Source: an uncultured Acidobacteriota bacterium
Lineage (GTDB): Bacteria; Acidobacteriota; Thermoanaerobaculia; Gp7-AA8
DNA length: 39,956 nt
Assembly (NCBI GenBank): GCA_946887105.1
Contig: CAMPKJ010000013.1
Span: forward strand, 1 to 39,956
Reading direction: 5' to 3'
Both the position numbers and the translations under genes were made by a program. The first letter of the stretch is position 1, and each line of letters opens with the position of its first letter. Positions 1,661 to 35,046 of this stretch are shown one piece after another. Below the pieces are notes generated by a model. That model saw only the letters and a list, made by a program, of their open reading frames with translations. It searched no databases and had not been told where the DNA came from.

Positions 1661-1750
1661 CAGTTCCTCGGTTCCTCGGAGTCCCTCGGAGTTCCTCGGC
1701 GGATTCAACCTGAGGAACTCCGAGGAACCCGAGGAACCCCGAGGAACTCG
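1661..1750. repeat. Inverted tandem-unit repeat, family A, copy 1
   Basis: The left arm (about 1663-1699) has four tandem units of the type AGTTCCTCGG. The right arm (about 1712-1750) has four of the reverse-complement type CGAGGAACTC. The loop is about 12 nt. As RNA it would form a long imperfect hairpin in the rplW-rplB gap. There is no U-tract after it, so it does not look like a simple terminator. Related copies lie at 20350-20440, 32662-32775 and 34039-34084. Confidence 0.9.
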
Positions 1751-1777
1751 TAACAACGAGCCGATAAAGAGAAAACT

Positions 1778-2602
1778 ATGGCTACCAACAAATACAAGCC
1801 GACTTCGCCGGGCATCCGGTTCCAGTCGCACGCGTCGTTCAAGGACATCACCAAGACGACGCCCGAGAAGGCCCTCACCAAGGGCAAGCCGAAGACGGGC
1901 GGCCGCAACAGCAAGGGCCGTATCACGTCGCGGTTCATCGGCGGCGGTCACAAACAGAAGTACCGCGACATCGACTTCAAGCGCGACAAGCGCGGGATTC
2001 CCGCGAAGGTCGCGGCCATCGAGTACGACCCGAACCGCACCGCGCACATCGCGCTGCTGCACTACGTCGATGGTGAGAAGCGCTACATCCTCGCGCCGAA
2101 CGGCCTGGCCGTCGGCACGATGATCACCGCCGGCGAGGAAGCCGACATCCTGGTGGGCAATGCCCTCCCGCTGTCGAAGATCCCCCTCGGCACCGTGATC
2201 CACAACGTCGAGCTGAAGGAAGGCAAGGGCGGCCAGATGGTCCGTTCCGCGGGCGTCGGCGCACAGCTGATTGCGCGCGAGGGCGACTGGGCCACGCTGC
2301 GTCTTCCCTCCGGCGAGATGCGCAAAGTCCACGTTCGTTGCTACGCGACGATCGGACAGGTCGGCAATCTCGAGCACGAGAACGTGTCGATCGGCAAGGC
2401 CGGCCGCACCCGTCACCTCGGCAAGAAGCCGCACAACCGCGGCGTCTCCATGAACCCGGTCGACCATCCGCTCGGCGGCGGTGAAGGCAAGACCTCCGGC
2501 GGCCGTCATCCGGTCAGCCCGTGGGGCCAGCCGACCAAGGGATACAAGACCCGCCGGAACAAGCAGACGAACAAGCTCATCGTCAAGCGGAGAACCAAGT
2601 AA
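1778..2602 (+). CDS. rplB: 50S ribosomal protein L2
   Basis: Core 23S rRNA-binding protein needed for subunit joining and peptidyl-transferase activity. The 274-residue protein matches the family length and has the RFIGGGHKQ and [12 protein letters not shown] motifs, plus the basic tail [18 protein letters not shown]. In the second motif the essential first His is kept, while the second His found in many bacteria is Leu. The stop codon shares one base with the rpsS start (TAATG at 2600-2604). Confidence 0.97.
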
Positions 2603-2892
2603 TGCGCTCACTGAAAAAAGGTCCGTTCGTGGACGACCACCTGATGAAGAAGGTGGAGACGATGAACCGCGAGCGCGACAAGAAGGTCATCAAGACCTGG
2701 TCGCGCCGCTCGACGGTGACGCCCGACATGGTCGGTCACACCATCGCGGTTCACAACGGCCGCAAGTTCACTCCGGTCTACATCTCCGAGAACATGGTCG
2801 GCCACAAGCTGGGCGAGTTCTCGCTGACCCGGATCTTCAAAGGCCACAGCGGCAAGAAAGTGGAGAAATCCGCCAAGCCTGCCGGCAAATAG
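2602..2892 (+). CDS. rpsS: 30S ribosomal protein S19
   Basis: Head protein of the small subunit that works with S13 near the A-site tRNA. The 96-residue sequence starts [14 protein letters not shown] and has the conserved [19 protein letters not shown] core. The frame is open further upstream inside rplB, but the ATG overlapping the rplB stop gives the canonical N-terminus. The gap to rplV is 12 nt. Confidence 0.97.
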
Positions 2893-2904
2893 CGGAGACG
2901 AACC

Positions 2905-3294
2905 ATGGAAGCAACCGCAACTCTCAGATATCTGAAAGCATCTCCGCAGAAGGTCCGCCTGGTGGCCGACCTGGTGCGCGGCAAGAAGGTCGAGGAAGCG
3001 CTCAACATCCTTCGCTTCACGCGCAAGTCGTGTGCGAAGGATCTGGAGAAGCTCCTTCGCTCGGCGGTCGCCAATGCGGAGAACAAGGAAAACGCACCCG
3101 ACGTCGACGAGCTCGTGGTCTCGCGGATCTACGTCAACGAAGGACCGCGCGAGCGGCGCATCCAGCCGGCTCCGATGGGCCGCGCCTATCAGATCCAGAA
3201 GCGCAAGGCGCACGTCACGGTGCATGTGTCGGATGAAGTCAAAGCGGTGAACGAGCGCAGCGGCGGCAAGGGCCGCGCCCGCGCCCGCAAATAA
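2905..3294 (+). CDS. rplV: 50S ribosomal protein L22
   Basis: Contacts all domains of 23S rRNA and forms part of the tunnel constriction. The 129-residue protein has the expected [21 protein letters not shown] helix pair and the hairpin region [22 protein letters not shown]. It is longer than the 110-residue E. coli protein because of a basic tail ([10 protein letters not shown]). The ribosome-binding site is GGAGACGAACC before the ATG. Confidence 0.97.
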
Positions 3295-3305
3295 CGGAGG
3301 CTACT

Positions 3306-3953
<648 letters not shown>

Positions 3954-3986
3954 TAGTCACGATCAGTATCCAGGAGAAATCGCATC

Positions 3987-4411
<425 letters not shown>

Positions 4412-4412
<1 letters not shown>

Positions 4413-4627
4413 TGGCCAGCCAGAAGACGATCACCACGCTTCGCGACAAGAGCGTCGACGAGCTCCGCTCGCGGGAGCGCGACCTGAAGGAGCAGCTGTT
4501 CAAGCTGCGCTTCCAGCGCGCCACCGGCCGAGTGGAAAACCCGATGAAGATGCGCCAGGTCCGGCGCGAGATCGCGCAGATCGAAACGCTCCTCAATGAG
4601 CGTGCGCGCACCAGCACCAACGCGTAA
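4412..4627 (+). CDS. rpmC: 50S ribosomal protein L29
   Basis: Small two-helix protein next to L23 at the tunnel exit. Of 71 residues, the recognisable parts are the [20 protein letters not shown] helix, [15 protein letters not shown], and the second helix ending LLNERA. It starts on the last base of the rplP stop, indicating coupled translation. The gap to rpsQ is 14 nt. Confidence 0.96.
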
Positions 4628-4641
4628 GGGAAGCAACACAC

Positions 4642-4920
4642 ATGGCAACGGAAAAGACAGAACAGACGGCGGACAAGAACGCGCGCACCAAGGTGGGCGT
4701 GGTGGTCTCCAACAAGATGCAGAAGACCGTCGTGGTGGCCGTGGAGAACCTGGTCAAGCACGGGATGTATCAGAAGTACATCAAGCGCACGAACAAGTTC
4801 CTCGCCCACAGCGAGCAGCCGGACATCAACATCGGCGATCGCGTGGTGATCGAGGAGACCCGGCCGCTCTCGAAGCTGAAGCGCTGGAAAGTCCGCGAAG
4901 TGCTCGACAAGGCAAGCTAG
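4642..4920 (+). CDS. rpsQ: 30S ribosomal protein S17
   Basis: Primary 16S rRNA-binding protein with an OB fold. The 92-residue protein has [17 protein letters not shown] and the [19 protein letters not shown] signature. About 15 extra N-terminal residues ([14 protein letters not shown]) precede the core. The TAG stop directly abuts an inverted repeat that fills the gap to rplN. Confidence 0.96.
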
Positions 4921-4982
4921 TGGAGCGGCGGCCTCTTCGGCCGCCGAACCAACGATCGTCGGGCGTAGAGCCCGCCGCTCCA
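4921..4982. repeat. Nested inverted repeat between rpsQ and rplN
   Basis: A perfect 11-nt outer inverted repeat has arms TGGAGCGGCGG at 4921-4931 and CCGCCGCTCCA at 4972-4982. An inner perfect hairpin lies at about 4928-4946, with arms GGCGGCC and GGCCGCC around a TCTTC loop. It starts at the first base after the rpsQ stop and ends just before the rplN ribosome-binding site (AGGAGA). The form is that of a REP-like dispersed palindrome; whether it is dispersed in this genome cannot be seen here. Confidence 0.85.
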
Positions 4983-4996
4983 CAGGAGAAAAAGTC

Positions 4997-5368
4997 ATGA
5001 TTCAGATGGGAACAGTTCTTCAGGTCGCGGACAACACCGGCGCGAAGAAGATCGCCTGCATCCGCCTCCGCGGCGGATCGACGGCCGGCCAGTACGCGCG
5101 CGTCGGCGACGTCATCACCGCTTCGGTCAAGGAAGCGTCGCCGGACGGGACCGTCAAGAAGGGCGCCGTGGTCCGGGCGGTCATCGTGCGCACGGTGAAA
5201 GAGACCCGTCGCCGCGACGGTTCGTACGTCAAGTTCGACGACAACGCAGCGGTCCTCATCAACGACGCACGCGAGCCGGTCGGGACGCGTGTCTTCGGAC
5301 CGGTGGCGCGCGAGCTTCGTGAGCGCAAGTTCATGAAGATCATCTCGCTGGCGCCCGAAGTCATCTAG
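4997..5368 (+). CDS. rplN: 50S ribosomal protein L14
   Basis: Intersubunit-bridge protein. The 123 residues match the family length almost exactly. [18 protein letters not shown] at the start and [17 protein letters not shown] near the end are diagnostic. The AGGAGAAAAAGTC leader before the ATG is a good ribosome-binding site just downstream of the inverted repeat. rplX follows after 12 nt. Confidence 0.98.
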
Positions 5369-5380
5369 GAAGCGAACGAA

Positions 5381-5746
5381 ATGTACGGAAAAGCATCAGT
5401 CAAACAGAAAGAAACCGCGCGCTACAAGCCGCACGTCAAGAAAGGCGACTCGGTCGTCGTTCTCTCGGGCAAGGACCGCGGCAAGCAGGGCCGCGTCCTG
5501 CGCGTGAACGCGACCAAGGGCACGGCCATCGTGGAGCGGGTGAACTTCACCAAGAAGCACACCAAGCCGAACCCCTCCAAGAACGTGAAGGGCGGCATCC
5601 TCGAGCGCGAGTCGCCGATCAACGTGGCCAAGCTCCAGGTGATCTGCCCCAGCTGCAACGAGCCGTCCCGGACCGGATCTCATCGGAACGAAGAGGGAGA
5701 AGCGGTCCGCTTCTGCCGCAACTGCAAAGCCGATCTCGGCAAGTGA
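5381..5746 (+). CDS. rplX: 50S ribosomal protein L24, zinc-ribbon form
   Basis: Assembly-initiator protein that binds the 5' end of 23S rRNA. The 121-residue protein has the KOW motif ([20 protein letters not shown], residues about 20-40) and [13 protein letters not shown]. The C-terminus adds CPSC and CRNC pairs, which would form a zinc ribbon; this is seen in L24 of many bacteria but not in E. coli. An 89-nt gap with a dyad follows before rplE. Confidence 0.96.
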
Positions 5747-5749
5747 CAC

Positions 5750-5790
5750 GAAGTGTCATCCTGAGCCGCCCGGCGGCGAAGGATCTGATC
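5750..5790. repeat. Short dyad repeat in the rplX-rplE gap
   Basis: Positions 5758-5784 form an imperfect palindrome. ATCCTGAGCCGCC pairs with GGCGGCGAAGGAT across one base, with 11 of 13 positions complementary. The wider string GTGTCATCCTGAGC...GAAGGATCTG resembles a short repeat that recurs in many bacterial genomes (recognised from memory, not searched). It separates rplX and rplE, genes that are usually tightly joined. Confidence 0.7.
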
Positions 5791-5835
5791 AATCGACCAG
5801 GCTCGTACTACGCCGAGCCACTACAAGGAACCAAG

Positions 5836-6378
5836 ATGTCAGCAAGGCTCAAAGAGCATTACCAGAAGGAAGTCCGCAGGAAGCTGCAGGACGAGTTTCA
5901 GATCAAGAACCCGATGGCGGTTCCCAAGATCGAGAAAGTGGTCCTGAACATGGGCATGGGCGAGGCCATCTCGAACGCCAAGCTCCTGGATACGGCGGTC
6001 GAAGAGCTGACCACCATCACCGGCCAGAAGCCGGTGGTCACCAAGGCCAAGAAGTCCATCGCCAGCTTCAAGCTCCGCGAGGGTCAGTCCATCGGCACGA
6101 TGGTCACGCTGCGCGGCGACAAGATGTACGAGTTTCTGGACCGTCTGATCAACATCGCGCTTCCGCGCGTCCGCGACTTCCGCGGCGTGCCGACCAAGTC
6201 GTTCGACGGCCGTGGCAATTACACCCTGGGCGTTCGCGACCACCTGATCTTTCCGGAGATCGACGCGGGCAAGGTCGACAAGTCCAAGGGCATGAACATC
6301 ACGATCGTCACGACGGCGAAGAATGACGAGCAGGCACGTTCGCTTCTTCGCGAGCTCGGGCTGCCGTTCGCGAAATAA
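5836..6378 (+). CDS. rplE: 50S ribosomal protein L5
   Basis: Part of the 5S rRNA complex with L18 and L25. From ATG 5836 the protein has 180 residues, matching the family (about 179), and starts [31 protein letters not shown] and [20 protein letters not shown] are diagnostic. The frame is open upstream to 5743, but that part lies in the palindromic gap and has no L5 character. AAGGAACCAAG precedes the chosen ATG. Confidence 0.97.
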
Positions 6379-6389
6379 GGGATACATCA

Positions 6390-6575
6390 ATGGCAAAAAC
6401 GTCAATGATCGTCAAGGCTGAGCGGAAGCCGAAATTTGCGGTTCGCAAGCGCAACCGCTGCAAGCAGTGCGGACGCCCGCGCGGGTTCCTGCGCAAGTTC
6501 CAGCTCTGCCGCATCTGCTTCCGTTTGCTCTCGCTCGGCGGGTACATCCCCGGCGTGACCAAGTCGAGCTGGTAG
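6390..6575 (+). CDS. rpsZ: 30S ribosomal protein S14, type Z (zinc)
   Basis: Small-subunit head protein. At 61 residues it is the short zinc-binding form, with CKQC and CRIC pairs around residues 24-43 and the ending [11 protein letters not shown]. The longer zinc-free S14 is not present at this locus. The gene could equally be called rpsN type Z. It sits in the standard spc position between rplE and rpsH. Confidence 0.97.
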
Positions 6576-6605
6576 CTCGCTGACCGAATAACCAGGAGTC
6601 ACAGA

Positions 6606-7007
6606 ATGTCGATGACAGATCCAATCGCGGATATGCTGACCAGAATCCGCAACGGAATTCAGTCGCGTCACGAACGCGTCGAGATGCCGAGCTCGAAACT
6701 GAAGGTCGAGGTCGCGAAGATCCTCAAGTCCGAGGGTTTCATCAGCAACTACAAGGTCGTGGCCGAAGACGGCAAACCGCAGGCCAGCCTGCGCGTCTAT
6801 CTCAAATACTCGAACGGCGAGTCCGTCATCCGTGGCATCGAGCGCGTCTCGCGTCCGGGCCGCCGCGTCTACCGCGGCAAGGAAGAGCTCCCGCAGGTCC
6901 TCGGAGGCCTCGGTCTGGCCATCGTCTCGACCTCCAAAGGCGTGCTCTCGGGCGCCGAGGCAGCTCGCACCGGCATCGGTGGCGAAGTGCTCTGCCAGGT
7001 CTGGTAA
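6606..7007 (+). CDS. rpsH: 30S ribosomal protein S8
   Basis: Binds the central domain of 16S rRNA; in E. coli it also regulates the spc operon. The 133-residue protein has [20 protein letters not shown] at the start and the ending [21 protein letters not shown], with the usual S(T)SKGVLS turn. An AGGAGT ribosome-binding site precedes the ATG. The gap to rplF is 12 nt. Confidence 0.97.
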
Positions 7008-7019
7008 GGAGAGATTCCA

Positions 7020-7562
7020 ATGTCTCGTATTGGTAAGAAAGAGATTCCGCTGCCGAAAGGCGTCGAAGTCAGCCACGTCGGCGATGCCGTCGTGGTCAAG
7101 GGGCCGAAAGGCAGCCTCTCCACGGCGGTGATCCCCGGCATCTCGATGTCGGTGGAGAACAACGTGGTGAAGTTCGAGCGCCGGGACGACGAGGGCAAGA
7201 CCCGCGCGTTCCACGGCCTCATGCGCGCCCTGGTGGCGAACAACGTCAAGGGTGTGAGCGAAGGCTTCAAGCGCGAGCTCGACATCGTCGGCGTCGGCTA
7301 CCGCGCCGAGGTCAAGGGGAAGGAAGTGGTCTTCCAGCTCGGCTACTCGCACCCGGTGAAGTTCCCGGTGCCGGACGGCATCGACATCACCGTCGACGCG
7401 AAGACGGGCCACATCACCGTGACCGGCATCGATCGCCAGAAAGTCGGACAGACGGCCGCGGAGATCCGCAGCCTGCGCGAGCCGGATCCCTACAAGGGCA
7501 AAGGCATCAAGTACTCCGACGAAGTGATCCGCCGCAAGGCCGGCAAGGCCGCGGGCAAATAA
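7020..7562 (+). CDS. rplF: 50S ribosomal protein L6
   Basis: Binds 23S rRNA near the sarcin-ricin loop with two similar domains. It is 180 residues long, starting MSRIGKKEIPLPKGV. The C-terminal domain contains GYSHPVKFPVPDGI, and the signature RSLREPDPYKGKGIKYSDE lies near the end. The 54-nt gap to rplR is longer than neighbouring joints, and I see no strong structure in it. Confidence 0.97.
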   Translation: MSRIGKKEIPLPKGVEVSHVGDAVVVKGPKGSLSTAVIPGISMSVENNVVKFERRDDEGKTRAFHGLMRALVANNVKGVSEGFKRELDIVGVGYRAEVKGKEVVFQLGYSHPVKFPVPDGIDITVDAKTGHITVTGIDRQKVGQTAAEIRSLREPDPYKGKGIKYSDEVIRRKAGKAAGK

Positions 7563-7616
7563 ACGCAGCACTCATGAACTAGTGGGCCGGGTACTCATCT
7601 CGGCACAGAGGACAAG

Positions 7617-7976
7617 ATGGATCAGGCAAGACACAGAGTGGAAGCGCGCGGAAGGATCCGGCAACGGATCCGGCGCAAGGTCTCCGGCACCGCGGATCGT
7701 CCGCGGCTGGCGGTGTACCGCAGCCTCAAGAGCATTTACGCGCAGGTGATCGACGACGCCAGCGGGCGGACGATCGCCTCCGCCTCGAGCCTGGAGAAGG
7801 ACGCCGGCGCGAAGGGCGCGAATGCAGCGGCGGCGAAAGCGGTCGGTGCGCTCATCGCGAAGAAGGCCAAAGACAACGGCATCACGAAGGTCGTGTTCGA
7901 CCGCGGCGGCTATCTCTACCACGGCAACATCAAGGCGCTCGCGGATGCAGCGCGTGAAGCCGGACTGGAATTCTAG
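7617..7976 (+). CDS. rplR: 50S ribosomal protein L18
   Basis: 5S rRNA-binding protein. The 119 residues include [20 protein letters not shown] and the C-terminal [20 protein letters not shown] block. The ribosome-binding site is GAGGACAAG directly before the ATG. It is followed 8 nt later by rpsE. Confidence 0.97.
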
Positions 7977-7984
7977 GAGAACTC

Positions 7985-8539
7985 ATGCAGCGTCCAATGC
8001 AGCGTCCAGGACAGGGCTCTCAGCGCGGCGAACGTCGTCAGGACGAGCGCAGCGAGAGCGGGATGATCGACAAGGTCGTCCACATCAACCGCGTGACGAA
8101 AGTCGTCAAGGGCGGTAAGAACTTCAGCTTCAGCGCGCTCGTGGTCGTCGGCGACGGCAAGGGCAAGGTGGGCTTCGGATCGGGCAAGGCCAAGGAAGTT
8201 CCGGCTGCGATCAAGAAGGGCATCGAGATCGCGAAGAAGAACATGATCCAGGTGGCTCTCAGCGGCACGACGATTCCGCACACGATCGTCGGCCACTACG
8301 GCGCCGGACAGGTTCTGCTCAAGCCGGCATCGGAAGGTACGGGCGTCATCGCCGGTGGTCCGGTGCGCGCGATCCTCGAGTCGGCCGGCATCCAGAACAT
8401 CCTCACCAAGTCGCTCGGAACGGCCAACCCGCACAACGTCGTGAAGGCGACGTTCGAGGCGCTCAAGCTGCTCCGCACGGCCGAGCAGTACAAGAGCCTG
8501 CGCGGCGGCGACGAAGCGACGGAAGGAGCCGAGGCATGA
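7985..8539 (+). CDS. rpsE: 30S ribosomal protein S5
   Basis: Small-subunit protein at the mRNA entry and decoding-fidelity region. The 184-residue protein has a Q/R-rich N-terminal extension (about 25 residues), then the S5 core with [37 protein letters not shown] and the domain-2 motif [19 protein letters not shown]. The stop overlaps the rpmD start as ATGA. Confidence 0.97.
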
Positions 8540-8757
8540 AACTGCGCGCCTTCCGGAGCAAAGAAAAGAAGACCGGACAGAAGATGATCCGCATCCGCCA
8601 GGTTGGCAGCGGCATCGCCTGCCCGGTGGAGATGCGCGAGACCCTCAAGGCGCTCGGCCTGGGCCGCATCAACCGCGTCAGCGAGCGTGTGGACACCCCG
8701 TCCGTGCGCGGCATGATCGCCAAGATCCCGCATCTGGTCGAAGTCGTCAGCGAGTAA
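8536..8757 (+). CDS. rpmD: 50S ribosomal protein L30
   Basis: Small 23S rRNA-binding protein. The core [13 protein letters not shown]...[10 protein letters not shown]...[10 protein letters not shown] is clear. The ATG overlapping the rpsE stop (ATGA) with GGAG upstream gives 73 residues, with a 16-residue basic extension. An internal ATG at 8584 would give 57 residues, nearer the usual size, but has a weaker ribosome-binding site. I favour 8536 because of the coupling. Confidence 0.93.
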
Positions 8758-8775
8758 ACGAATTCGAGGTCAACG

Positions 8776-9219
8776 ATGGAACTCAGCAATCTGAAACCGA
8801 AAAAGGGCGCGCGGCACGCCAAGAAGCGCGTCGGCCGCGGTCCGGGCTCGGGACATGGCAAGACGTCCAGCCGCGGGGAGAAGGGACAGAAGTCCCGCTC
8901 CGGCTACAGCGGCAAGCGCGGTTTCGAAGGCGGCCAGATGCCTCTGCATCGCCGTCTGCCGAAGCGCGGCTTCACCAACATCTTCAAGAAGGACTACGCG
9001 GTGGTGAACGTCTCCGACCTGGAGCGTTTCGACAACGGCGCGTCGGTCGATGAAGCGATGCTTCGTCAGGCCGGCCTGGTCAAAGGCTCGCACGACGGCG
9101 TGAAGGTTCTCGGCGACGGCGAGCTCTCCAAGAAGCTCACCGTCTCGGCGACGAAGTTCTCGAAGTCGGCCAAAGAGATCATCGAGAAGGCCGGCGGTAG
9201 CTGCCAGGAGATCCAGTAA
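8776..9219 (+). CDS. rplO: 50S ribosomal protein L15
   Basis: Late-assembly large-subunit protein. The 147 residues carry the glycine-rich, basic N-terminal half ([20 protein letters not shown], then [18 protein letters not shown]) typical of L15 and a globular C-terminal half. The secY GTG follows 1 nt after the stop, so secY is very probably translated together with it. Confidence 0.97.
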
Positions 9220-9220
9220 C

Positions 9221-10633: not shown

Positions 10634-10648
10634 GGCGGGTATCGAAAC

Positions 10649-11299: not shown

Positions 11300-11312
11300 A
11301 GGCGCGAGGGAG

Positions 11313-12137: not shown

Positions 12138-12155
12138 GAAGTCAAAAAGGAAGGT

Positions 12156-12390: not shown

Positions 12391-12407
12391 GAGGCGAGAG
12401 TGAAATC

Positions 12408-13347: not shown

Positions 13348-13353
13348 GGCAGC

Positions 13354-14071: not shown

Positions 14072-14079
14072 TTGAACCC

Positions 14080-14147
14080 AGCTCTCAGCTCTCAGCTCCG
14101 GCTCTCAGGTCTCTTTCCTGCGGGTTGCGCGCTGGGGGCTGCGGGCT
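14080..14147. repeat. Inverted tandem-unit repeat, family C
   Basis: The left arm (14080-14108) has about four 7-nt units of the AGCTCTC type. The right arm (about 14118-14147) has four 7-nt units of the GCGGGCT type (GCGGGTT, GCGCGCT, GGGGGCT, GCGGGCT). Many mismatches between the arms are A-to-G changes that keep G-U pairs in RNA. It fills most of the rpsD-rpoA gap and ends just before the rpoA AGGAGG. Confidence 0.65.
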
Positions 14148-20344: not shown

Positions 20345-20349
20345 GTCGG

Positions 20350-20440
20350 GTCCTCGGAGTTCCTCGGGTTCCTCGGAGTTCCTCGGCCGGTCTCGTTTCC
20401 TCCGAGGAACTCCGAGGCACCGAGGAACCCGAGGAACTCC
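20350..20440. repeat. Inverted tandem-unit repeat, family A, copy 2
   Basis: The left arm (20350-20386) has four units of the AGTTCCTCGG type. The right arm (about 20399-20440) has four of the CGAGGAACTC type. It fills almost the whole gap between the aldehyde dehydrogenase stop (20442) and the ligase ATG (20344). On the minus strand its last GAGG sits 7 nt before that ATG, so the element appears to provide the ribosome-binding site. Confidence 0.9.
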
Positions 20441-25197: not shown

Positions 25198-25204
25198 GCG
25201 TCAG

Positions 25205-25232
25205 CGATGCACGATGAACGATGAACGATGGG
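25205..25232. repeat. Family D tandem-unit array, left arm
   Basis: Four 7-nt units: CGATGCA, CGATGAA, CGATGAA, CGATGGG. It is the inverted partner of the array at 25399-25440, and the two arms face inward with CGATGGG and CCCATCG. A 56-codon membrane-protein gene fills the space between them. On the minus strand this arm starts directly after that gene's stop codon. Confidence 0.9.
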
Positions 25233-25403
25233 TCATGCGCGCCGGTCCCGCGTGAGGATCCATCCGAGTACGTACAGAAATCCGCCGAGCGCGAGCAGCT
25301 GAACTTCCGTACGAATCTCGCCGCGCACGAGTCCGTACAGCAACCCGATCGGCAGGATGATCATGCCGATGATCTGCAGGAGACGTCCGATCGTCGCGCC
25401 CAT
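25233..25403 (-). CDS. Small two-helix membrane protein (56 aa)
   Basis: The protein starts MGATIGRLLQIIGMIILPIG and has two hydrophobic segments (about 5-25 and 35-52) separated by a charged turn (VRGEIRTEV), ending TRDRRA. The frame was read directly from the bases. It is an inner-membrane protein of unknown function; I recall no named family. The start codon lies inside the last unit of the right repeat arm, with GAGGAACG in front as a possible ribosome-binding site. The gene exactly fills the space between the two inverted arms. Confidence 0.75.
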   Translation of the reverse strand: MGATIGRLLQIIGMIILPIGLLYGLVRGEIRTEVQLLALGGFLYVLGWILTRDRRA

Positions 25404-25440
25404 CGTTCCTCGTTCCTCGTTCCTCGTTCATCGTTCATCG
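25399..25440. repeat. Family D tandem-unit array, right arm
   Basis: Six exact 7-nt units read on the minus strand: CGATGAA, CGATGAA, CGAGGAA three times, then CGATGGG. The first unit contains the TGA stop of the HEAT-cyclophilin gene. The last unit contains the ATG of the 56-residue protein, with GAGG four bases before it. The array is the whole intercistronic region. Confidence 0.92.
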
Positions 25441-27966: not shown

Positions 27967-27974
27967 GGCCGCGA

Positions 27975-27980
27975 ATGATA
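27975..27980 (-). promoter_or_regulatory. Probable -10 box of the HEAT-cyclophilin gene
   Basis: TATCAT on the minus strand is 8 nt before ATG 27966, with no Shine-Dalgarno sequence. It lies back to back with the ccmA box in a 40-nt divergent gap, so the two promoters must overlap. Confidence 0.5.
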
Positions 27981-27991
27981 GCCGCCTCGGG

Positions 27992-27997
27992 TAGACT
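27992..27997 (+). promoter_or_regulatory. Probable -10 box of the ccm operon
   Basis: TAGACT ends 9 nt before the GTG of ccmA, and there is no Shine-Dalgarno sequence. Transcription would start at or within a few bases of the GTG. No -35 box is recognisable. Confidence 0.45.
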
Positions 27998-28006
27998 CGC
28001 GGGCGC

Positions 28007-28687
28007 GTGAACGACGTTTCGATCGATGTCCATCAGCTGGCGCGGCGGTACGGACGCCGCTGGGCGCTCAGCAGCGTGACCCTGCACATACCGGCCGCGA
28101 CCGCGGTGATGGTGGCCGGCCGCAACGGTGCCGGAAAATCGACGCTGCTGCGCGTGCTCGCGACCGCCATCCGTCCCGATCACGGGACGGCGACCATCGG
28201 CGGCTTCGACGTCGTGCGCGACCGCGCCGACGTGCGCAAACTGACCGCGCTGCTGTCGCATCAGAACTATCTCTACGACTCGCTCACCGCGCGCGAGAAC
28301 CTCGCGGTCGTGGCCGATCACCTGCGCGTTTCCCGCGATCGCGTCCTGCCGCTGCTCGAGCAGGTCGGACTCGCGGCGCGCGCGGACGATGTGATCTCGA
28401 CGTTCTCCGCCGGCATGCGCAAGCGGTTGTCGTTCGCGCGCGTGCTGCTGCAGGAGCCGCGGCTGGTGCTGCTCGACGAGCCGTATGGCGCGCTCGATCC
28501 GCCCGGCTTCGATCTCGTCGACAGCGTCATCGCCGGACTGAAGGCCAGCGGAGCGACCATCCTCATGGCCACGCATCAATGGGAGCGCTCCGCGAGCTTC
28601 TGCGACATGGCGGTGGTGATCGAGCAGGGGAAGGTGTACTGGCAGGGGCCGGCCGGCGAGGCGATGGCGCACGAGGTACGGGAGTGA
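28007..28687 (+). CDS. ccmA: Cytochrome c maturation ABC ATPase CcmA
   Basis: ATPase of the CcmABCD complex, which uses ATP to release holo-CcmE. The 226 residues have Walker A GRNGAGKST, the signature FSAGMRKRLSFARVLL, Walker B LVLLDEPYGALD and the switch His in MATHQW. Identity as CcmA rather than a generic ABC ATPase comes from ccmB-I directly downstream. The start is GTG. A family-B repeat separates it from ccmB, while the later ccm genes are nearly all overlapped. Confidence 0.93.
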   Translation: MNDVSIDVHQLARRYGRRWALSSVTLHIPAATAVMVAGRNGAGKSTLLRVLATAIRPDHGTATIGGFDVVRDRADVRKLTALLSHQNYLYDSLTARENLAVVADHLRVSRDRVLPLLEQVGLAARADDVISTFSAGMRKRLSFARVLLQEPRLVLLDEPYGALDPPGFDLVDSVIAGLKASGATILMATHQWERSASFCDMAVVIEQGKVYWQGPAGEAMAHEVRE

Positions 28688-28689
28688 GA

Positions 28690-28774
28690 AGTCGCAGAGT
28701 CTCAAAGTCTCAGAGTCTCAAAGGGTCTGCCTCCCTCGTCCTTTGCGACTTTGCGACTTTGCGACTTTGCGACT
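28690..28774. repeat. Inverted tandem-unit repeat, family B
   Basis: The left arm (28690-28724) has four 8-nt units AGTCGCAG, AGTCTCAA, AGTCTCAG, AGTCTCAA, then AGG. The right arm (28740-28774) has CCT then four exact TTGCGACT units, the reverse complement of AGTCGCAA. The loop is about 15 nt. It lies between ccmA (stop 28687) and ccmB (ATG 28797). Confidence 0.93.
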
Positions 28775-28796
28775 CCCCCCGCGGGTGGGGGCGCCC

Positions 28797-29456
28797 ATGC
28801 TGATCGCCGCGCTCCGCAAGGAGCTCCTCCTCCAATGGCGTACGCGCGGCCAGCTCATGGCCGTGTTCGTCTTCGGCGCGGCCGCGCTGCTGCTCTTTAG
28901 CTTCGCCATCGGTCCGGACGCCTCCGCGTTGCGCACGTTCTCGGCGGGGTTTCTTTGGCTCGGACTGCTGCTCTCCTCGACCCTCACGCTGGCCGAGAGT
29001 TTCCACGCCGAGATGGAGAATCGCGCGCTGGAAGGTCTGCTGCTGTTGCCGTCCGATCCGCACGCCCTCTATTACGCGAAGGCGATCGCCAACTGGATCC
29101 AGCTCACGCTTCTCGGCATCGCCCTGGTCCCGGTCATGGTCGTCCTCTACGACGCCGGCACGCCGCGACTGCTGACTCTGCTTCTGGTGATCGTCCTCGG
29201 CGCGGCCGGACTCTCCGCGCCGGGAACTCTCTATGCCGCGATGACGGCGCAGCTCAAGGCGAAACAGACTCTGCTCCCTCTGCTGTTGTTCCCGCTGATC
29301 GTTCCGGCCCTGCTCGCGTCCGTCAAGGCAACGTCCCTGGTGATCCTCGGCGACCCGATGGGGCAGGCCCGGCCGTGGATCATTCTGTTGATCGCGTTCG
29401 ACCTGATCTACTGGTCGCTGTGCGGATTGTTGTACGGTCGTGTGGTCGAGGACTGA
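28797..29456 (+). CDS. ccmB: Cytochrome c maturation permease CcmB
   Basis: Membrane partner of CcmA. From ATG 28797 it has 219 residues, the usual CcmB length, starting LIAALRKELLLQWRTRGQL. It has about six membrane segments and the cytoplasmic AESFHAEMENRALEGLLLLP block typical of CcmB. The frame is open upstream through the repeat to 28743; that part is repeat-encoded and was not used. The ccmC ATG follows after 7 nt. Confidence 0.94.
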   Translation: MLIAALRKELLLQWRTRGQLMAVFVFGAAALLLFSFAIGPDASALRTFSAGFLWLGLLLSSTLTLAESFHAEMENRALEGLLLLPSDPHALYYAKAIANWIQLTLLGIALVPVMVVLYDAGTPRLLTLLLVIVLGAAGLSAPGTLYAAMTAQLKAKQTLLPLLLFPLIVPALLASVKATSLVILGDPMGQARPWIILLIAFDLIYWSLCGLLYGRVVED

Positions 29457-29463
29457 GACGAAG

Positions 29464-30123
29464 ATGCGCAAAGGCTACGCATTCATCCTGATCGGAGCGG
29501 CCCTGCTGCTGCTCGGCTCGTATTACGGACTCTTCGTGGCGCCGCCCGAGAAGTTCATGCGCGACGTGCAGCGCATCATGTACGTGCACGTGCCGACCGC
29601 GTGGAACTGGATGCTGGCCATCCTCTTCTCGTTCTTCTGCGCGATCGCTTTTCTCTTCCGCAACGACATGAAGTGGGACGCGCGCCTCGAGGCCGGCCTC
29701 GAAGTAGGAGCGCTGTTCGGCTTTCTGCTCTGCTGCCAGGGCTCGATCTGGGCCAAGCCGACCTGGGGCGTCTGGTGGGACTGGGACCCGCGCCTGACCA
29801 CCACCGCCGTGCTGCTGTTCGCGACTCTGGGCATCCTGGCGCTGCGCAACTTCGTCGAAGATCCGACCAAGCGCGCGGTCTGGTCCTCCGTGGCCACGAT
29901 CATCGCCTCGGTCGATCTGCCGATCGTCTACTTCTCGGTCAAATGGTGGAACTCGCTGCACCAGGTGCAGTCGACGCCGCAGACCGTCTCGTCGCCGTTT
30001 CATCTGCCGCTGCGCGTGAACGCGTTCGGCGTGCTCTTTCTGATGATCGGATTCATCATGGTACGCACACGCATCGCCGCGGCGCGGCACGAACGTGAGC
30101 TGACCGCACCGGAGGTCGCATGA
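29464..30123 (+). CDS. ccmC: Haem transport protein CcmC
   Basis: Presents haem to CcmE in the inner membrane. The 219 residues contain the tryptophan-rich haem motif WGVWWDWDPRLTT (about residues 99-111), with His residues in MYVHVPTAWNW and near the end, and six membrane segments. The stop overlaps the ccmD start as ATGA. Confidence 0.95.
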   Translation: MRKGYAFILIGAALLLLGSYYGLFVAPPEKFMRDVQRIMYVHVPTAWNWMLAILFSFFCAIAFLFRNDMKWDARLEAGLEVGALFGFLLCCQGSIWAKPTWGVWWDWDPRLTTTAVLLFATLGILALRNFVEDPTKRAVWSSVATIIASVDLPIVYFSVKWWNSLHQVQSTPQTVSSPFHLPLRVNAFGVLFLMIGFIMVRTRIAAARHERELTAPEVA

Positions 30124-30245
30124 CTGAAGGCGTGATCAGCGGAGGCTGGGAGTTCGTCTGGGCCGCATACGGAATCACCGCGGCCGTATTTGTGCTGTAC
30201 GGAATCTCACTCATGTCCCGCATTCGGGAGGCCCGAAAGAAATGA
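30120..30245 (+). CDS. ccmD: CcmD-like small membrane protein
   Basis: A 41-residue protein with one membrane segment (FVWAAYGITAAVFVLYGISL) and a basic tail (SRIREARKK), the usual CcmD plan. It sits in the ccmC-ccmE interval with ATGA overlaps on both sides. In known systems CcmD is needed to release holo-CcmE from CcmABC. It was read directly from the bases. Confidence 0.92.
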   Translation: MTEGVISGGWEFVWAAYGITAAVFVLYGISLMSRIREARKK

Positions 30246-30718
30246 CCGAATCCGACAAGATGCGCCGCAGGACGCGCTGGTACATGGCCGGCGCATTCGC
30301 CGTCGCCGCGATCGCGTTCGGCGTGATCGCCGGCAGCGGCATCAACAAAAACCTCGTCTATTACTGGACGCCTACCGACCTCTACGCGAACGGCGACAAG
30401 GCGTACGGCGCGTCGATCCGTCTCGGCGGCATGGTCGCCAAGGGCTCGATCCGGAAGATCGGCGGCTCGGCGGTCGAGTTCGACGTCAAAGATGCCACGC
30501 GCGTGGTTCGCGTGAAGACCAGCACCGTCCCGCCGCAGATGTTCCGCGAGAACATCGGCGTGGTCGTGGAAGGGACGATGGTCAAGGGCGGCTACTTCCA
30601 GTCGAACCGCCTGATGGTCTCGCACAACAACGAGTACAAGGCACCCGAGGCAGGACATCCGGTCGATCGCAAAGAGCTCGAGCGGATGATGAAGAGCGTC
30701 GAGCAAGGAAACACATGA
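30242..30718 (+). CDS. ccmE: Haem chaperone CcmE
   Basis: Periplasmic haem carrier anchored by one N-terminal membrane segment (residues 13-32). The 158 residues have the OB-fold core with RLGGMVAKGSI and the haem-binding HxxxY motif at H128-Y132 (SHNNEY), the form that binds haem covalently through His. It overlaps ccmD and ccmF by 4 nt each. Confidence 0.95.
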   Translation: MTESDKMRRRTRWYMAGAFAVAAIAFGVIAGSGINKNLVYYWTPTDLYANGDKAYGASIRLGGMVAKGSIRKIGGSAVEFDVKDATRVVRVKTSTVPPQMFRENIGVVVEGTMVKGGYFQSNRLMVSHNNEYKAPEAGHPVDRKELERMMKSVEQGNT

Positions 30719-32793
30719 TCCCTTCCCTCGGACGCATGCTCATTCTGGCGTCGCTCCTCTGCGCCGCCGCGGGCGCGGTGCTCGGATTCGCCGCCGGCCG
30801 CTCGCGCTCGCTCGAAGGGCTGAAGTGGACGCGCCGCTTCGCCTATCTCTACGCCGCCACCATCGGCGCCGCCGCGCTGCTGATGGAGTACGCGCTGCTC
30901 ACGCACGACTTCTCGGTCGGCTACGTCGCGCAGGTCGGCTCGCGTGCGGTTCCGACATGGGTCACGATCGTCAGCCTCTGGTCGTCGCTCGAAGGCTCGA
31001 TCCTCTTCTGGGGCTTCGTCCTCGGCGCATACATCGCGCTGGCGACGTTCCTCACGCGCGGACGCTACGCGGAGTACCAGCCCGACGCGATCGGCGTCTG
31101 GCTCAGTTGCGCGGCGTTCTTCAGCTTTCTGATCGCCGGTCCGGCCAATCCGTTTCTGACCGTTCCGAACCCGCCGCTCGATGGTCCCGGTCCGAATCCG
31201 CTGCTGCAGAATCACGTGCTGATGGCGGTCCATCCGCCGTTCCTCTATCTCGGCTACGTCGGCATGACCATTCCGTTCGGATTCGCGTGCGCGGCGCTGA
31301 TCAAAGGACGCCTCGGACACGGCATCCTCAAGCCGCTGCGCGAGTCGCTGATGCTGCCGTGGATCTTCCAGACCATCGCAATCATGTTGGGGGGCTGGTG
31401 GGCGTACGAAGTGCTCGGCTGGGGCGGTTACTGGGCCTGGGATCCGGTCGAAAACGCATCGCTGCTTCCGTGGCTGACCGCCACCGCCGCACTGCACTCG
31501 ATCATGGTCGTCGAACGCCGCGGCATTCTGAAGGGCTGGACGATCACGCTGATCCAGGCCACGTTCCTGCTGGTCATCCTCGGCACGTTCATGACGCGCT
31601 CCGGCGTGTTCAACTCCGTGCATTCGTTCACGCAGAGCGCGATCGGTCCGACCATTCTCGCGTTCCTGGCGGTGTCGCTGCTCTTCTCGATCGCACTGCT
31701 GGCGTTCCGCATCGACAAGCTCGAAAGCGACGGCCGGATCGAAGGCGCCGCCAGCCGCGAGGCGATGTTCCTCATCAACAATATGCTGTTCGTGCTGCTG
31801 ACGTTCACGGTGCTGATCGGCACCGTCTTCCCGCTCATCGTCGAGGCCATCAACGGCAAGCAGATGAGCGTCGGACGTCCGTACTTCGATCAGATGGTGA
31901 TCCCGATCGGCGCGGTGCTGCTGTTCATCCTCGGCGTCGGCCCGGCGCTCCCGTGGGGCCGCGCCACCGGCGATCAGGTGAAGAAGGCGTTGCTGCCGCC
32001 ATTCCTCGGCGCCGCGGTATTCGCGATCGTCGGGTTCATCGCCAACGTGCGCAGCCCGTGGACGCTGCTGACGCTCGCGTTTGGCGGGTACGCGGTGTGG
32101 GTGACGCTCGGACAGATGTTCCTGCCGATGCTGCAGCGGATGAATCGCGGCGAGTCGGCGACGGCGTCGTTCGTCGACGCGAACCTGCGCCGCGGGCGGA
32201 GACGTTTCGCGTCGTACATCGTCCACGGCGCGGTGGTGGTGACGATCCTCTGCATCGCCATCGGCACCTCGCTGCGCCAGACCAATGAGCTGCACTTCAC
32301 GAAGGGACAGACGCAGCAGGCGTCGGGATTCGACGTCACGTTCCGCGGCGTCGAAGAGCTGCGCGAGCCGCACCGCACGTCGATCCTCGGCCGCTTCGAC
32401 ATCACCCGCAACGGAAAGCCGGTGGCCAGCCTCGCGCCGCGCATGAATCAGTACCGCATGATGCGCGAGCCGATCGGCACGCCGGACGTGCACACCACCG
32501 CCGGCGGCGATCTGTATCTCGCGCTCAGCAACATCGATCCGTCGGCCGAGACCGCGAGCGTGAACGTGATCACCACGCCGCTGGTGATGTGGATCTGGAT
32601 CGCGGTGATTCTGATGGGCGTTGGCGCGCTGTTCGGATTGGTTCCGGCGCGGCGCGCTGCTGAAGTCCCTCGGGGTTCCTCGGAGTTCCTCGGAGTTCCT
32701 CGGGACCAGGAGATCGCTGAGCCGCCGGATACTCCGAGGGACTCCGAGGAACCCCGAGGAACCCGAGGAACTTCAGCACCGGAGACCGCATGA
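30715..32793 (+). CDS. ccmF: Cytochrome c haem lyase subunit CcmF
   Basis: Multi-pass membrane protein that joins haem to apocytochrome c. From the ATG overlapping the ccmE stop it has 692 residues (E. coli 647). The WWD-type motif WGGYWAWDPVENASLLPW is present, and the last membrane segment is VMWIWIAVILMGVGALFGL. After this the protein ends in about 40 residues encoded by a family-A repeat (VPRGSSEFLGVPR... then TPRDSEEPRGTRGTS). The stop overlaps the ccmG ATG. Confidence 0.95.
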   Translation: MIPSLGRMLILASLLCAAAGAVLGFAAGRSRSLEGLKWTRRFAYLYAATIGAAALLMEYALLTHDFSVGYVAQVGSRAVPTWVTIVSLWSSLEGSILFWGFVLGAYIALATFLTRGRYAEYQPDAIGVWLSCAAFFSFLIAGPANPFLTVPNPPLDGPGPNPLLQNHVLMAVHPPFLYLGYVGMTIPFGFACAALIKGRLGHGILKPLRESLMLPWIFQTIAIMLGGWWAYEVLGWGGYWAWDPVENASLLPWLTATAALHSIMVVERRGILKGWTITLIQATFLLVILGTFMTRSGVFNSVHSFTQSAIGPTILAFLAVSLLFSIALLAFRIDKLESDGRIEGAASREAMFLINNMLFVLLTFTVLIGTVFPLIVEAINGKQMSVGRPYFDQMVIPIGAVLLFILGVGPALPWGRATGDQVKKALLPPFLGAAVFAIVGFIANVRSPWTLLTLAFGGYAVWVTLGQMFLPMLQRMNRGESATASFVDANLRRGRRRFASYIVHGAVVVTILCIAIGTSLRQTNELHFTKGQTQQASGFDVTFRGVEELREPHRTSILGRFDITRNGKPVASLAPRMNQYRMMREPIGTPDVHTTAGGDLYLALSNIDPSAETASVNVITTPLVMWIWIAVILMGVGALFGLVPARRAAEVPRGSSEFLGVPRDQEIAEPPDTPRDSEEPRGTRGTSAPETA
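32662..32775. repeat. Inverted tandem-unit repeat, family A, copy 3 (inside ccmF)
   Basis: The left arm (32662-32703) starts TGAAGT and has four AGTTCCTCGG-type units. The right arm (about 32731-32774) has four CTCCGAGGAA-type units and ends ACTTCA, so even the outer ends are inverted. The loop is about 27 nt. The element lies in frame in the 3' end of ccmF and stops just before the ccmG ribosome-binding site (GGAG). Confidence 0.92.
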
Positions 32794-33305
32794 ACCGCAC
32801 CGTCCTCCTCGTCGGCGTCGCCATCGCAGCGATCCTGCTCGGGATCCTGTTCATGGGACTGGGCAAGAATCCGAACGAGATCCGTTCGCCGCTGATCGGC
32901 AAAGCGGCGCCGGCGTTCACGCTGCGCGAAGTCGGCACCGGCCGCGCGGTCGATCTCGCGCAACTGCGCGGAAAACCGGTGGTGATCAACTTCTGGGCAA
33001 CGTGGTGCGCGCCGTGTTGGGAAGAGCATCCGGTGCTGGTCGCGAACGCGAAGATGCTGCCGGACGTGCAGTTTCTCGGCGTCGTGTTCCAGGATTCCGA
33101 GGAGAAGATTCTCGGCTTCCTGCAGCAGCGCGGATCGAGTTATCCGACCGTCGTCGACGACCGCGGGAAGACAGCCATCGCGTACGGCGTCGGCGGCGTG
33201 CCGGAGACCTTTTTCCTCGATGAGCGGGGGATCATCGTCGCGAAGTTCAGCGGACCGATGTCGTCCGACATCCTGCAGGAGCATCTGCGGAAGGTCGTGC
33301 GCTGA
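32790..33305 (+). CDS. ccmG: Periplasmic thioredoxin CcmG/DsbE
   Basis: Membrane-anchored thioredoxin that keeps apocytochrome c thiols reduced. Of 171 residues, 5-23 form the anchor, WCAPC holds C73 and C76, and the cis-Pro loop is GVGGVPETF. Its ATG overlaps the ccmF stop. It could also be called ResA-like, but the place in the operon fits CcmG. Confidence 0.95.
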   Translation: MNRTVLLVGVAIAAILLGILFMGLGKNPNEIRSPLIGKAAPAFTLREVGTGRAVDLAQLRGKPVVINFWATWCAPCWEEHPVLVANAKMLPDVQFLGVVFQDSEEKILGFLQQRGSSYPTVVDDRGKTAIAYGVGGVPETFFLDERGIIVAKFSGPMSSDILQEHLRKVVR

Positions 33306-33781
33306 TGGTGCTGGCGCTGCTGCTTCTGCTGCAATTGAAAGTGCCGGACGCGGCCACGTTCGTCGGTCCGCCGAAAGGCGCGCCGATGGCCGGAGCGGCA
33401 CTCGCACAGCGCACGAACGAAGTGTCCGCGCTGCTGCGCTGCCCGGTCTGTCAGGGCATGGCTGTCGCCGATTCGCCCGCGGAGATGGCGGTGAACATGA
33501 AGGCGCAGGTGCACGAGCTCCTCGCGCGCGGCTACACGGAAGAGCAGATCCTGAAGTACTTCGAGCTGTCGTACGGGCAGTTCGTGCTCTTGCGGCCGAA
33601 GTTCGAAGGCGTGAATCGTCTGGTGTGGCTGTTGCCACTCGGCGCGTTGCTGGCCGGCATCGCCATCGTCTATTTCGCGCTGAAGAAGCTCGAGTCCCGC
33701 GCCGCGGCACCGGCGCCGGCGCCTGTGGATGATCCTTACCTGTCGCGCGTGCGCGATCTCGTCGGCGGAGACAAATCATGA
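33305..33781 (+). CDS. ccmH: Cytochrome c maturation protein CcmH
   Basis: Thiol-reducing protein that works with CcmG on the apocytochrome CxxCH site. The 158 residues have a hydrophobic N-terminus, the LRCPVCQ motif (C46, C49) and a C-terminal membrane helix (LVWLLPLGALLAGIAIVYFA). It is the short form, equal to the N-terminal half of E. coli CcmH; the TPR half is the separate next gene. The start shares a base with the ccmG stop. Confidence 0.94.
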   Translation: MVLALLLLLQLKVPDAATFVGPPKGAPMAGAALAQRTNEVSALLRCPVCQGMAVADSPAEMAVNMKAQVHELLARGYTEEQILKYFELSYGQFVLLRPKFEGVNRLVWLLPLGALLAGIAIVYFALKKLESRAAAPAPAPVDDPYLSRVRDLVGGDKS

Positions 33782-35046
33782 ACGCATCCACGGACTGGGT
33801 CAGCGCGATCGCGATCCTCGCCGCCGGCCTGGTCCTCGGCGCACTGTTCTTCTACTTCAACAAGCGCCGCAACGCGCAGACGCTCGGCGGCGAAGTGGAT
33901 CTCGAACGCAAGGACCTCACCGCAAAACGCGACGCATTGATCCAGCAGCTCCGCGATCCGTCCCTCGGCGTCGACGAGCGCACGCGCCTCGAGCTCGAAA
34001 CCGCCGAGGTGTTGCGCAAGCTGGACGAATATCCGCCCACTCCGAGGGGCGCCGAGGAACTCCGAGGCACCCCGAGGAACTCGGCCGTCAATCCGACCGT
34101 GAAAGGCTTCCTGTGGGGCGCGGCATCGATGGCGGCACTCTTCGCCCTCGGGTACTTCGTGATGCGCGAGGCCAAGCCGCGGCAGGAAGGCGACGAGATC
34201 ACGGGCGGCTTCAATGCACAACAGCAGGCGCAGAACGCCGACCCGGCGGTGCAGACGCTCGAAGCGGCAGTGCAGGCGCAACCGGGAAACATCGAACTGC
34301 GCAACAATCTCGCGCAGGCGTATCTCGAGCGCGACAACCTGATGGCCGTGTTCGAGCAGACGCGGGTGGTGCTCGCGCAGGCGCCGGAGAACAGCCGCGC
34401 GCTCACGCTGCAGGGCCTCGTGCGCATGGCCATGGGCGAGACCGAACAGGCCACGTCGATGCTGCAGCGCGCCACGAAAAACGATCCGAAGAACCTCGAC
34501 GGATGGGTTGCGCTGGCGTGGGTCTACGCGCAGAGCGATCGCATGCAGGACGCGGAACGGATGATCCAGTCGGCCGCGCAACAGGTCCCCGAAGAGCGGA
34601 CTCGGCTCGAACAGGTCTTCGTGCAGATGAAGGCGCAGCTCGCGCAACAGGACGTGCAGCAGGCGGGCAACGCGCTGCCGGAAGGACATCCCCCCGTCGA
34701 AGCGCCTCCGGCGGCGCCCGCCGCAAACGCGCCTGCCTCCGGCGTGCGCGTCACGCTCGACCTCGACGCGAACGCAAAGCCGCGCACCGGCATCGTCTTC
34801 GTGATCGCGCGCAATCCCGCCGGCGGCCCGCCCGTGGCCGTGAAACGCGTGGTGGCGACGTCGTTTCCGATGAACGTCGAGCTCACGTCCGCCGACTCGA
34901 TGATGGGCCAGCAACTCCCCGCGAACTTCCGTCTCGAAGCACGCCTCGATACAGACGGCGATCCGATGACCAAGCCGCCGACGGACCCGAGCGCGTTGCA
35001 GAACGGAGTCGCGCCGGGAGCGACCGTGCGTCTCGCTCTGAAGTAG
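33778..35046 (+). CDS. ccmI: CcmI/CycH-like TPR protein
   Basis: Apocytochrome chaperone of the haem-ligation complex. The 422 residues hold membrane helix 1 (about 8-27), a charged helical stretch, a repeat-encoded linker (about 86-103, TPRGAEELRGTPRNS), membrane helix 2 (about 109-129), TPR-type repeats (150-290) and a C-terminal beta domain with TGIVFVIARNPAGGPPVAVKR typical of CycH proteins. The ATG overlaps the ccmH stop. It is the last gene of the ccm set. Confidence 0.88.
   Translation: MNASTDWVSAIAILAAGLVLGALFFYFNKRRNAQTLGGEVDLERKDLTAKRDALIQQLRDPSLGVDERTRLELETAEVLRKLDEYPPTPRGAEELRGTPRNSAVNPTVKGFLWGAASMAALFALGYFVMREAKPRQEGDEITGGFNAQQQAQNADPAVQTLEAAVQAQPGNIELRNNLAQAYLERDNLMAVFEQTRVVLAQAPENSRALTLQGLVRMAMGETEQATSMLQRATKNDPKNLDGWVALAWVYAQSDRMQDAERMIQSAAQQVPEERTRLEQVFVQMKAQLAQQDVQQAGNALPEGHPPVEAPPAAPAANAPASGVRVTLDLDANAKPRTGIVFVIARNPAGGPPVAVKRVVATSFPMNVELTSADSMMGQQLPANFRLEARLDTDGDPMTKPPTDPSALQNGVAPGATVRLALK
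34039..34084. repeat. Family A half-element inside ccmI
   Basis: Four units of the CTCCGAGGAA type in one direction only, with no inverted arm. It is translated in frame as a short linker between the charged segment and the second membrane helix of CcmI. It uses the same reading frame as the right arm in ccmF (TPR..EE..RGT). Confidence 0.8.

Follow-up and report, generated by a model that had tools for sequence, protein, structure and literature searches.

Dispersed hairpins with tandem arrays as arms in an acidobacterial genome and its sampled relatives

Background

The STRR sequences of cyanobacteria are short intergenic arrays of heptamers, built as direct repeats. Several other described systems also resemble the elements considered here. 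In Xanthomonas, tandem arrays facing each other as inverted pairs have been printed for one heptamer family, GGGAATC (PMC4692102). The P6b stem of the trnL group I intron of Nostoc is made of one of two seven-nucleotide motifs (PMC4476775). REPINs are inverted doublets of repetitive extragenic palindromic (REP) sequences with a less conserved spacer (PMC3116915). In this study, we analyze a stretch of 39,956 nucleotides from an uncultured Acidobacteriota bacterium (contig CAMPKJ010000013.1, forward strand; “the window” hereafter means this whole stretch) that carries hairpins with short tandem arrays as arms, and we compare these with similar elements in related genomes.

An earlier note, made from the letters of the window, had proposed that several elements share one plan (about four tandem units, a loop, and an inverted arm of about four units) carried out in unrelated words, and had not recognized it as a described class. 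The plan itself is borne out below, with qualifications. That it is wholly undescribed is not, as the same plan is in print for Xanthomonas and a similar one for Nostoc.

Results

Inverted pairs of tandem arrays in the window

The window elements are dispersed DNA hairpins with tandem arrays as arms. At all six positions named in the earlier note, tandem 7-10-mers are accompanied by an inverted partner array. Our pair detector, which takes Tandem Repeats Finder (TRF) arrays of period 6-12 with reverse-complement units and at most 250 nt between arms, reports 6 pairs in the window, versus totals of 0, 3, and 2 in sets of 100 shuffled windows at orders 2, 3, and 5. Order-3 shuffles of the window, of L001-L004, and of G015 stretches, 2.0 Mb in all, contain no pair, nor do 100 kb of E. 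coli K-12. A chance origin of the window pairs is excluded. The features are as follows, the host gene being the only one with a strand.

A1 5' arm, 1662..1699: about 4 units of TTCCTCGG(AG), between rplW and rplB
A1 loop, 1700..1711: 12 nt, unrecognisable in the short spacer of relative G001
A1 3' arm, 1712..1749: about 4 inverted units
C 5' arm, 14079..14113: about 5 CAGCTCT units, in the rpsD-rpoA spacer
C 3' arm, 14118..14147: decayed inverted units (reverse complement AGCCCNC)
A2 5' arm, 20346..20386: about 4 units
A2 loop, 20387..20399: 13 nt, adjoining the start of the glutamine synthetase gene
A2 3' arm, 20400..20440: about 4 inverted units
D 5' arm, 25205..25230: about 4 units of CGATGAA
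Host gene enclosed by the D arms, 25233..25403, minus strand: encodes a 56-aa protein that G001, G018, and G015 match
D 3' arm, 25403..25440: 5-6 inverted units (TCGTTCC/TCGTTCA)
B 5' arm, 28689..28723: about 4 units of 8 nt, between the ABC ATPase and CcmB genes
B 3' arm, 28741..28774: about 4 inverted units (CTTTGCGA), one position differing from the first arm in most units
A3 5' arm, 32664..32703: 4 units, within the 3' end of the CcmF reading frame
A3 loop, 32704..32730: 27 nt, within the CcmF reading frame
A3 3' arm, 32731..32772: about 4 inverted units
A4, 34039..34082: lone A-type array in a TPR/ccmI-like gene, no partner detected

The compact arrangement of arm, loop, and inverted arm holds for A1 (1662-1749), A2 (20346-20440), A3 (32664-32772), and B (28689-28774), with RNA folding z-scores of -8.6, -8.3, -8.5, and -7.3, respectively. 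It does not extend to the other two elements. C (14079-14147) is weak: its second arm agrees with the unit only in the form AGCCCNC, and the element folds as plus-strand RNA (z -4.7) while failing to fold as DNA (z -0.6). The arms of D are inverted and tandem, but they lie about 170 nt apart with a small conserved gene between them, and the segment they enclose is that host gene (local score 141 versus 73 ± 6, best of 300 shuffles 92). At the D site, G001:C25 carries about 2.5 kb of extra sequence relative to the window, between the equivalents of window positions 25210 and 25345. The solitary array A4 explains where the range given in the earlier note ended.

Judged by SecY, which is 84-90% identical to that of four acidobacterial metagenome-assembled genome loci (L001-L004, two of them labelled gp7), the window comes from an acidobacterium near subdivision 7. 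It starts with a ribosomal-protein operon, followed by genes for glutamine synthetase, aldehyde dehydrogenase, and cytochrome-c maturation; gene calls here and below are simple scores, not the output of an annotation pipeline. A thiamine pyrophosphate riboswitch (RF00059, 65.5 bits) at 36371-36462, directly upstream of a TonB-dependent receptor gene, was the sole match in an Rfam scan of 101 kb (window, L043, L105, and L103), in which the tandem hairpins matched nothing.

Breadth and density in relatives

One plan in unrelated words, as the earlier note had it, recurs in the sampled relatives beyond chance, with hairpins lying between genes in many soil Acidobacteria. The breadth sample, which like our other samples consists of stretches of genomes, comprised 80 SecY loci that represent Acidobacteriota together with a small number of further phyla; by the same detector, 26 of them contain at least one pair. 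Twenty of the positive loci are labelled as Acidobacteriota groups; the other six (L026, L049, L053, L055, L065, and L075) are Nitrospinae, Nitrospirae/Nitrospira, Thermodesulfovibrionales, Deltaproteobacteria, and Desulfobacterales records. None of the nine Aminicenantes-labelled loci has a pair. The words vary widely, including AGTCCTG, CAGATCG, GGCTCTT, GGTTGCGA, GAAGGCA, CAGCTNT, GTTTCAAG, AAAATTC, and others.

For the densities in G015, G018, and G001 and for the neighbour counts below, partners had to lie within 100 nt; the neighbour counts used one symmetric rule for inverted and direct orientation. Stretches that were not picked through hits gave 16 pairs in 214 kb of G015 (7.5 per 100 kb, compared with 30.4 in its hit-picked stretches), 11 in 88 kb of G018, and 3 in 120 kb of G001, the nearest relative examined, which spans 2.5-12.6 pairs per 100 kb across the three relatives. 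G014 has 19 pairs in 72 kb, every stretch having been picked through matches.

Unit number

Pooled over five sample sets, paired arms contain a median of 4.4 units at period 7 (n = 330; median arm length in the individual sets, 30-32 nt) and 4.2 at period 8 (n = 80), with higher values of 5.0-6.2 at the rarer periods 6, 9, and 10 (n = 6, 4, and 5). The copy numbers of the two arms are within one unit of each other in 157/233 pairs. The proposed number of about four is therefore the mode also beyond the window, but it is no rule, because A-type arrays in G015 reach 16 units. A-like arrays of that genome, such as L104:9513-9811 and L105:10075-10298, have arms of 8-16 units, the longest in the sample, and one AGTGCTG arm has 12.

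A preference for four units could reflect G-quadruplexes, with four units supplying four G-tracts, as proposed for the GGGAATC repeats. Most Xanthomonas GGGAATC arrays do have four units (PMC4692102), and some units here are G-rich (GGGGTCG in G014). However, the same plan is found in units without G-tracts (AGTCCTG, ATTGAAA, CAGCTNT, and GTTTCAAG), and these G-poor families refute quadruplexes as a general cause; we give this explanation almost no credence. The same observation argues against quadruplexes behind the “four units” of the Xanthomonas repeats.

Pairing and polarity

Neighbouring arrays are inverted in 165 cases and direct in 11, a direct count that is possibly too low because TRF can merge adjacent direct arrays; a further 41 are undecidable because the unit resembles its own complement. 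An inverted partner was found for 409 of 845 arrays and none was detected within 100 nt for the other 436, so the inverted partners described in the earlier note predominate among neighbours but are not universal. The solo arrays bear a hairpin-family word in 28/70 cases in G015, 8/17 in G014, and 13/36 in G018.

Since a hairpin X-loop-X' presents X first on both strands, which word leads is a real property of an element. This polarity is constant within families in G015 (37/37), G014 (16/16), and G018 (10/10), i.e., 63/63 in total with ties and reference hairpins excluded. We also examined the ribosomal-protein operon of a Terriglobales-labelled genus (L035, L043, and L047), using 20 of 24 genomes and leaving out four fragmented ones; polarity there is constant in 73/76 cases under the same exclusions. 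Species within one genus are not independent, and counts over them or over species pairs are therefore no p-values. In the gp7-like sets, where families were counted separately for each set, G outnumbers C in the 5' arm of 34/40 families. T outnumbers A in the 5' arm of 91/96 Terriglobales operon hairpins, and the nine non-acidobacterial hairpins have more A than T there.

These data bear on the possibility that the elements are common microsatellites, grown by strand slippage and paired only accidentally. The large unpaired share, about half of all arrays, would suit such an origin, but the scarcity of inverted pairs in the three sets of shuffled windows, the 165 to 11 ratio of inverted to direct neighbours, and the 63/63 polarity make it very improbable. 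As the earlier note had argued, the arrays are unlike ordinary slipped microsatellites. Slippage is refuted as a full account by pairing and polarity, and may well contribute to array growth.

Loops and transposases

Loops of 5-40 nt are not shared within families: none of 223 same-family comparisons reaches 80% identity, and family means lie near shuffled values. A search of relatives, as suggested by the earlier note, yielded inverted partners and a mode near four units, with about half of the arrays unpaired; it revealed no link to a transposase. Such a link is expected if the hairpins are non-autonomous mobile elements resembling REPINs or bacterial interspersed mosaic elements (BIMEs), which a transposase moves whole and whose loops then decay fast. 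This explanation accommodates dispersed families of like arms with nearly fixed polarity, a spacer less conserved than the arms as in REPINs, sets of families that vary from genome to genome (1/18 family genomes has the exact A-type 19-mer), filled and empty sites in related genomes, and Y1_Tnp matches in 17/18 family genomes. It is at odds with the unshared loops and with the host gene enclosed by the D arms. Moreover, PF01797 was searched in the 18 family genomes and 9 others. The 18 gave 101 Y1_Tnp matches; of the 30 loci fetched from these, only 2 had a hairpin within the fetched flanks, and neither G001 nor G025 had a match, although G025, a draft that may be incomplete, has 10 pairs in 21 kb. 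An association with a REP-associated tyrosine transposase (RAYT) was rejected on this basis, and we rank mobile hairpins of this kind second, as a rather doubtful explanation.

G015 also contains a palindromic element of about 160-200 bp (L105:7294-7457) with dozens of matches in the genome and none at the orthologous site of G014; it looks like a miniature inverted-repeat transposable element or a large REP.

Ribosomal-protein spacers and RNA-level selection

In the Terriglobales operon, 330/448 spacers are 55-260 nt long, whereas 21/27 window spacers do not exceed 33 nt. Among 326 of the spacers of 55-260 nt, 107 combine a hairpin with tandem units, 64 have such units alone, 53 have a hairpin of another kind, and 102 have neither. 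The word at rpsM-rpsK varies by species (AGTTCTC, AGGTCTC, the 8-mer AGGTTTCA, AGCTCTT, and others). In an arm-sharing test that did not ask for complementarity, 117/352 spacers had an array in each half, and the two arms were within two edits of each other in 88 of these 117. For species with differing words, an arm matched its own partner better than the arm of the other species in 422/588 comparisons, equally in 136, and worse in 30. A word shared by both arms of a site at which species differ is thus a tendency. In some spacers, e.g., rplN-rplX and rpmD-rplO of G029/G044, GTAG-type palindromes (GTAGAGACGCGGC...GCCGCGTCTC) replace tandem hairpins.

Hairpins in such places could be selected as intercistronic RNA structures, acting in mRNA stability, processing, or translation coupling and only incidentally made of tandem words. 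Consistent with this are the enrichment in the ribosomal-protein spacers of this one genus, the occurrence of unrelated hairpin families and GTAG-type palindromes at the same spacer in different species, and the pairing of C as RNA, via G.U, but not as DNA. However, G.U and A.C mismatches number 187:163 (p 0.22) and 23:32 (p 0.28), with no sense-strand excess of G.U, and RNA-level selection through G.U pairs was rejected for want of such a bias. In G015 and G018, hairpins also occupy convergent and divergent spacers, and a 20.7-kb stretch of relative L001 that takes in the ribosomal-protein operon yielded no pair of tandem arrays. A general RNA role would also leave both the tandem units and their number of four unexplained. 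We place this explanation third because of the ribosomal-protein enrichment, and regard it as unlikely.

Orthologous sites

Hairpins at orthologous sites were compared between G015 and the congeneric G014. At L103:19511, the arms are 97-100% identical, including a variant unit, the flanks 77-82%, and the loops are at the shuffled level. Five further hairpins have shuffled-level loops with arm identities of 0.20-0.94; at L105:12818 and L105:5993, the arms score 0.20-0.77, the lowest value with very unequal lengths. In the remaining four of these six hairpins, loops score 0.33-0.36 (the shuffled level), arms 0.63-1.00, and flanks 0.60-0.92. Different families occupy the same spacer at L103:9649 and L105:4342, and the site of the G015 hairpin L103:17961 is empty in G014.

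The comparison with empty sites that the earlier note had called for was also possible for the window itself, since G001 is collinear with it over nearly its full length and lacks A1, A2, A3, and B. At the C site, the rpsD-rpoA spacer of L001/G001 holds an unrelated 13-bp hairpin with GGCAGGCAGG, itself a short tandem. In the few filled/empty pairs, judged by eye, inverted arms are present and no clear target-site duplication is seen. At three sites in or beside called genes (L105:13891 lies inside one), the lengths fit if the loop is counted as host DNA (80 vs 77, 89 vs 90, and 100 vs 95 nt; without the loop, 53, 76, and 85 nt). The loop fits by length at these three sites but not at two others, and sequence likeness is weak, so that host DNA in the loop was rejected as a general rule; only D is clear.

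Discussion

We favour, at a probability of roughly 0.4, a reading in which arms are copied from a pool of family arrays and an inverted copy then arises nearby, with one strand preferred, around host DNA. We prefer it because there is no G.U excess, hairpins stand in convergent and divergent spacers, loops are changeable and not shared, and D surrounds a host gene. Other points in its favour are the unit medians near four, the preponderance of inverted neighbours, the nearly fixed polarity, the G-rich 5' arms of the gp7-like sets, the closer match of arms within a site than across species, the orthologous loops at the shuffled level, and the three sites with fitting lengths. In this scheme, a short array of about 30 nt would enter a spacer, copied from a family of like arrays or grown by slippage. 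It would then be copied in reverse a short distance away, possibly through a fold-back (template-switch) step of one particular strand, and the “loop” would be whatever host DNA stood between the arms. The word in the arms could later be replaced through slippage and copying from sister arrays. As a speculation, hairpin nucleases such as SbcCD may trim longer arms, which would keep stems close to 30-40 bp.

Several observations weigh against arm copying around host DNA. About half of the arrays (436 of 845) have no inverted partner that we could detect, no nascent event was seen in the sampled stretches, and nothing that we found explains why there are four units. At the three length-fitting sites, the loop is not clearly like the empty site (shuffles did as well in 169, 178, and 17 of 500), and two intergenic sites, A1 and G015 L103:17961, agree better with the empty site when the loop is left out. 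In two small families, the mean loop identity exceeds the shuffled value (0.55 vs 0.47 and 0.68 vs 0.51), and several loops of the G018 GAAGGCA family start with TGAGAA. The G skew of the 5' arm is missing from the other Acidobacteriota hairpins (32 vs 29). Arms are closer to their own partner than to sister arms in G018 and G015 but not in G014, and a mirrored order of unit variants, rejected as a general feature, is favoured only in G015 and not in G014 or G018, in a test that begins by choosing the best phase and is thereby biased towards register. At rpsM-rpsK, the two arms carry different words in G031, G044, and G046. Finally, tandem units occur in 171/326 ribosomal-protein spacers of the Terriglobales genus versus 7/88 co-directional spacers elsewhere (four genomes), and neutral copying does not predict such enrichment.

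It is conceivable, though we hold this only tentatively, that many bacteria of several phyla have in common a sequence-independent DNA process, which sets up about four tandem 7-10-mers per array as inverted pairs with fixed polarity and host DNA inside and in time rewrites the word in both arms, with the Xanthomonas and Nostoc repeats as further instances; that one process is shared by all of them is inferred. When a structure persists although its sequence changes, the usual interpretation is a functional RNA. Here the pairing shows no RNA-strand bias, so a conserved hairpin, taken by itself, may simply result from DNA copying. In that case, searches that use covariation to find RNA elements can go astray in genomes of this kind, and the origin and rewriting of short bacterial palindromes become testable.

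Comparison with known systems

Like REPINs and REP-BIME elements, the hairpins are dispersed, intergenic, inverted short pairs with a less conserved middle (PMC3116915, PMC3733652), but they differ in their tandem-word arms, their unshared loops, and the lack of any RAYT association found here. A 2025 survey of REP sequences (PMC12306157) lists three Acidobacteriota in a table. The TAACTGA repeats of Beggiatoaceae are likewise short intergenic heptamer arrays, but they are direct, with 169 direct sets and one indirect set in the Maribeggiatoa genome (PMC4679880), in contrast to the inverted pairs here. In our literature search, from which subscription papers were mostly out of reach, we found no paper on a plan with many words in many phyla.

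The Nostoc P6b stem resembles the present hairpins in that one motif class has repeatedly been replaced by the other with a similar structure kept (PMC4476775). It is, however, a single intron locus, as opposed to the 2.5-12.6 pairs per 100 kb in our three relatives. The GGGAATC arrays of Xanthomonas (PMC4692102) share 7-nt units, mostly four in number, in convergent pairs, which parallels the median of 4.4 units over 330 period-7 arms and the near-constant polarity reported above. They consist of one G-rich word with a quadruplex reading, whereas here there are many words of 7, 8, or 8-10 nt, G-poor ones included; a GGG tract is absent from, for example, AGTCCTG, CAGATCG, and ATTGAAA, and orthologous sites carry different words. 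Tandem-arm hairpins of this kind are a variant of an already described plan, with an unusual breadth of many words and several phyla.

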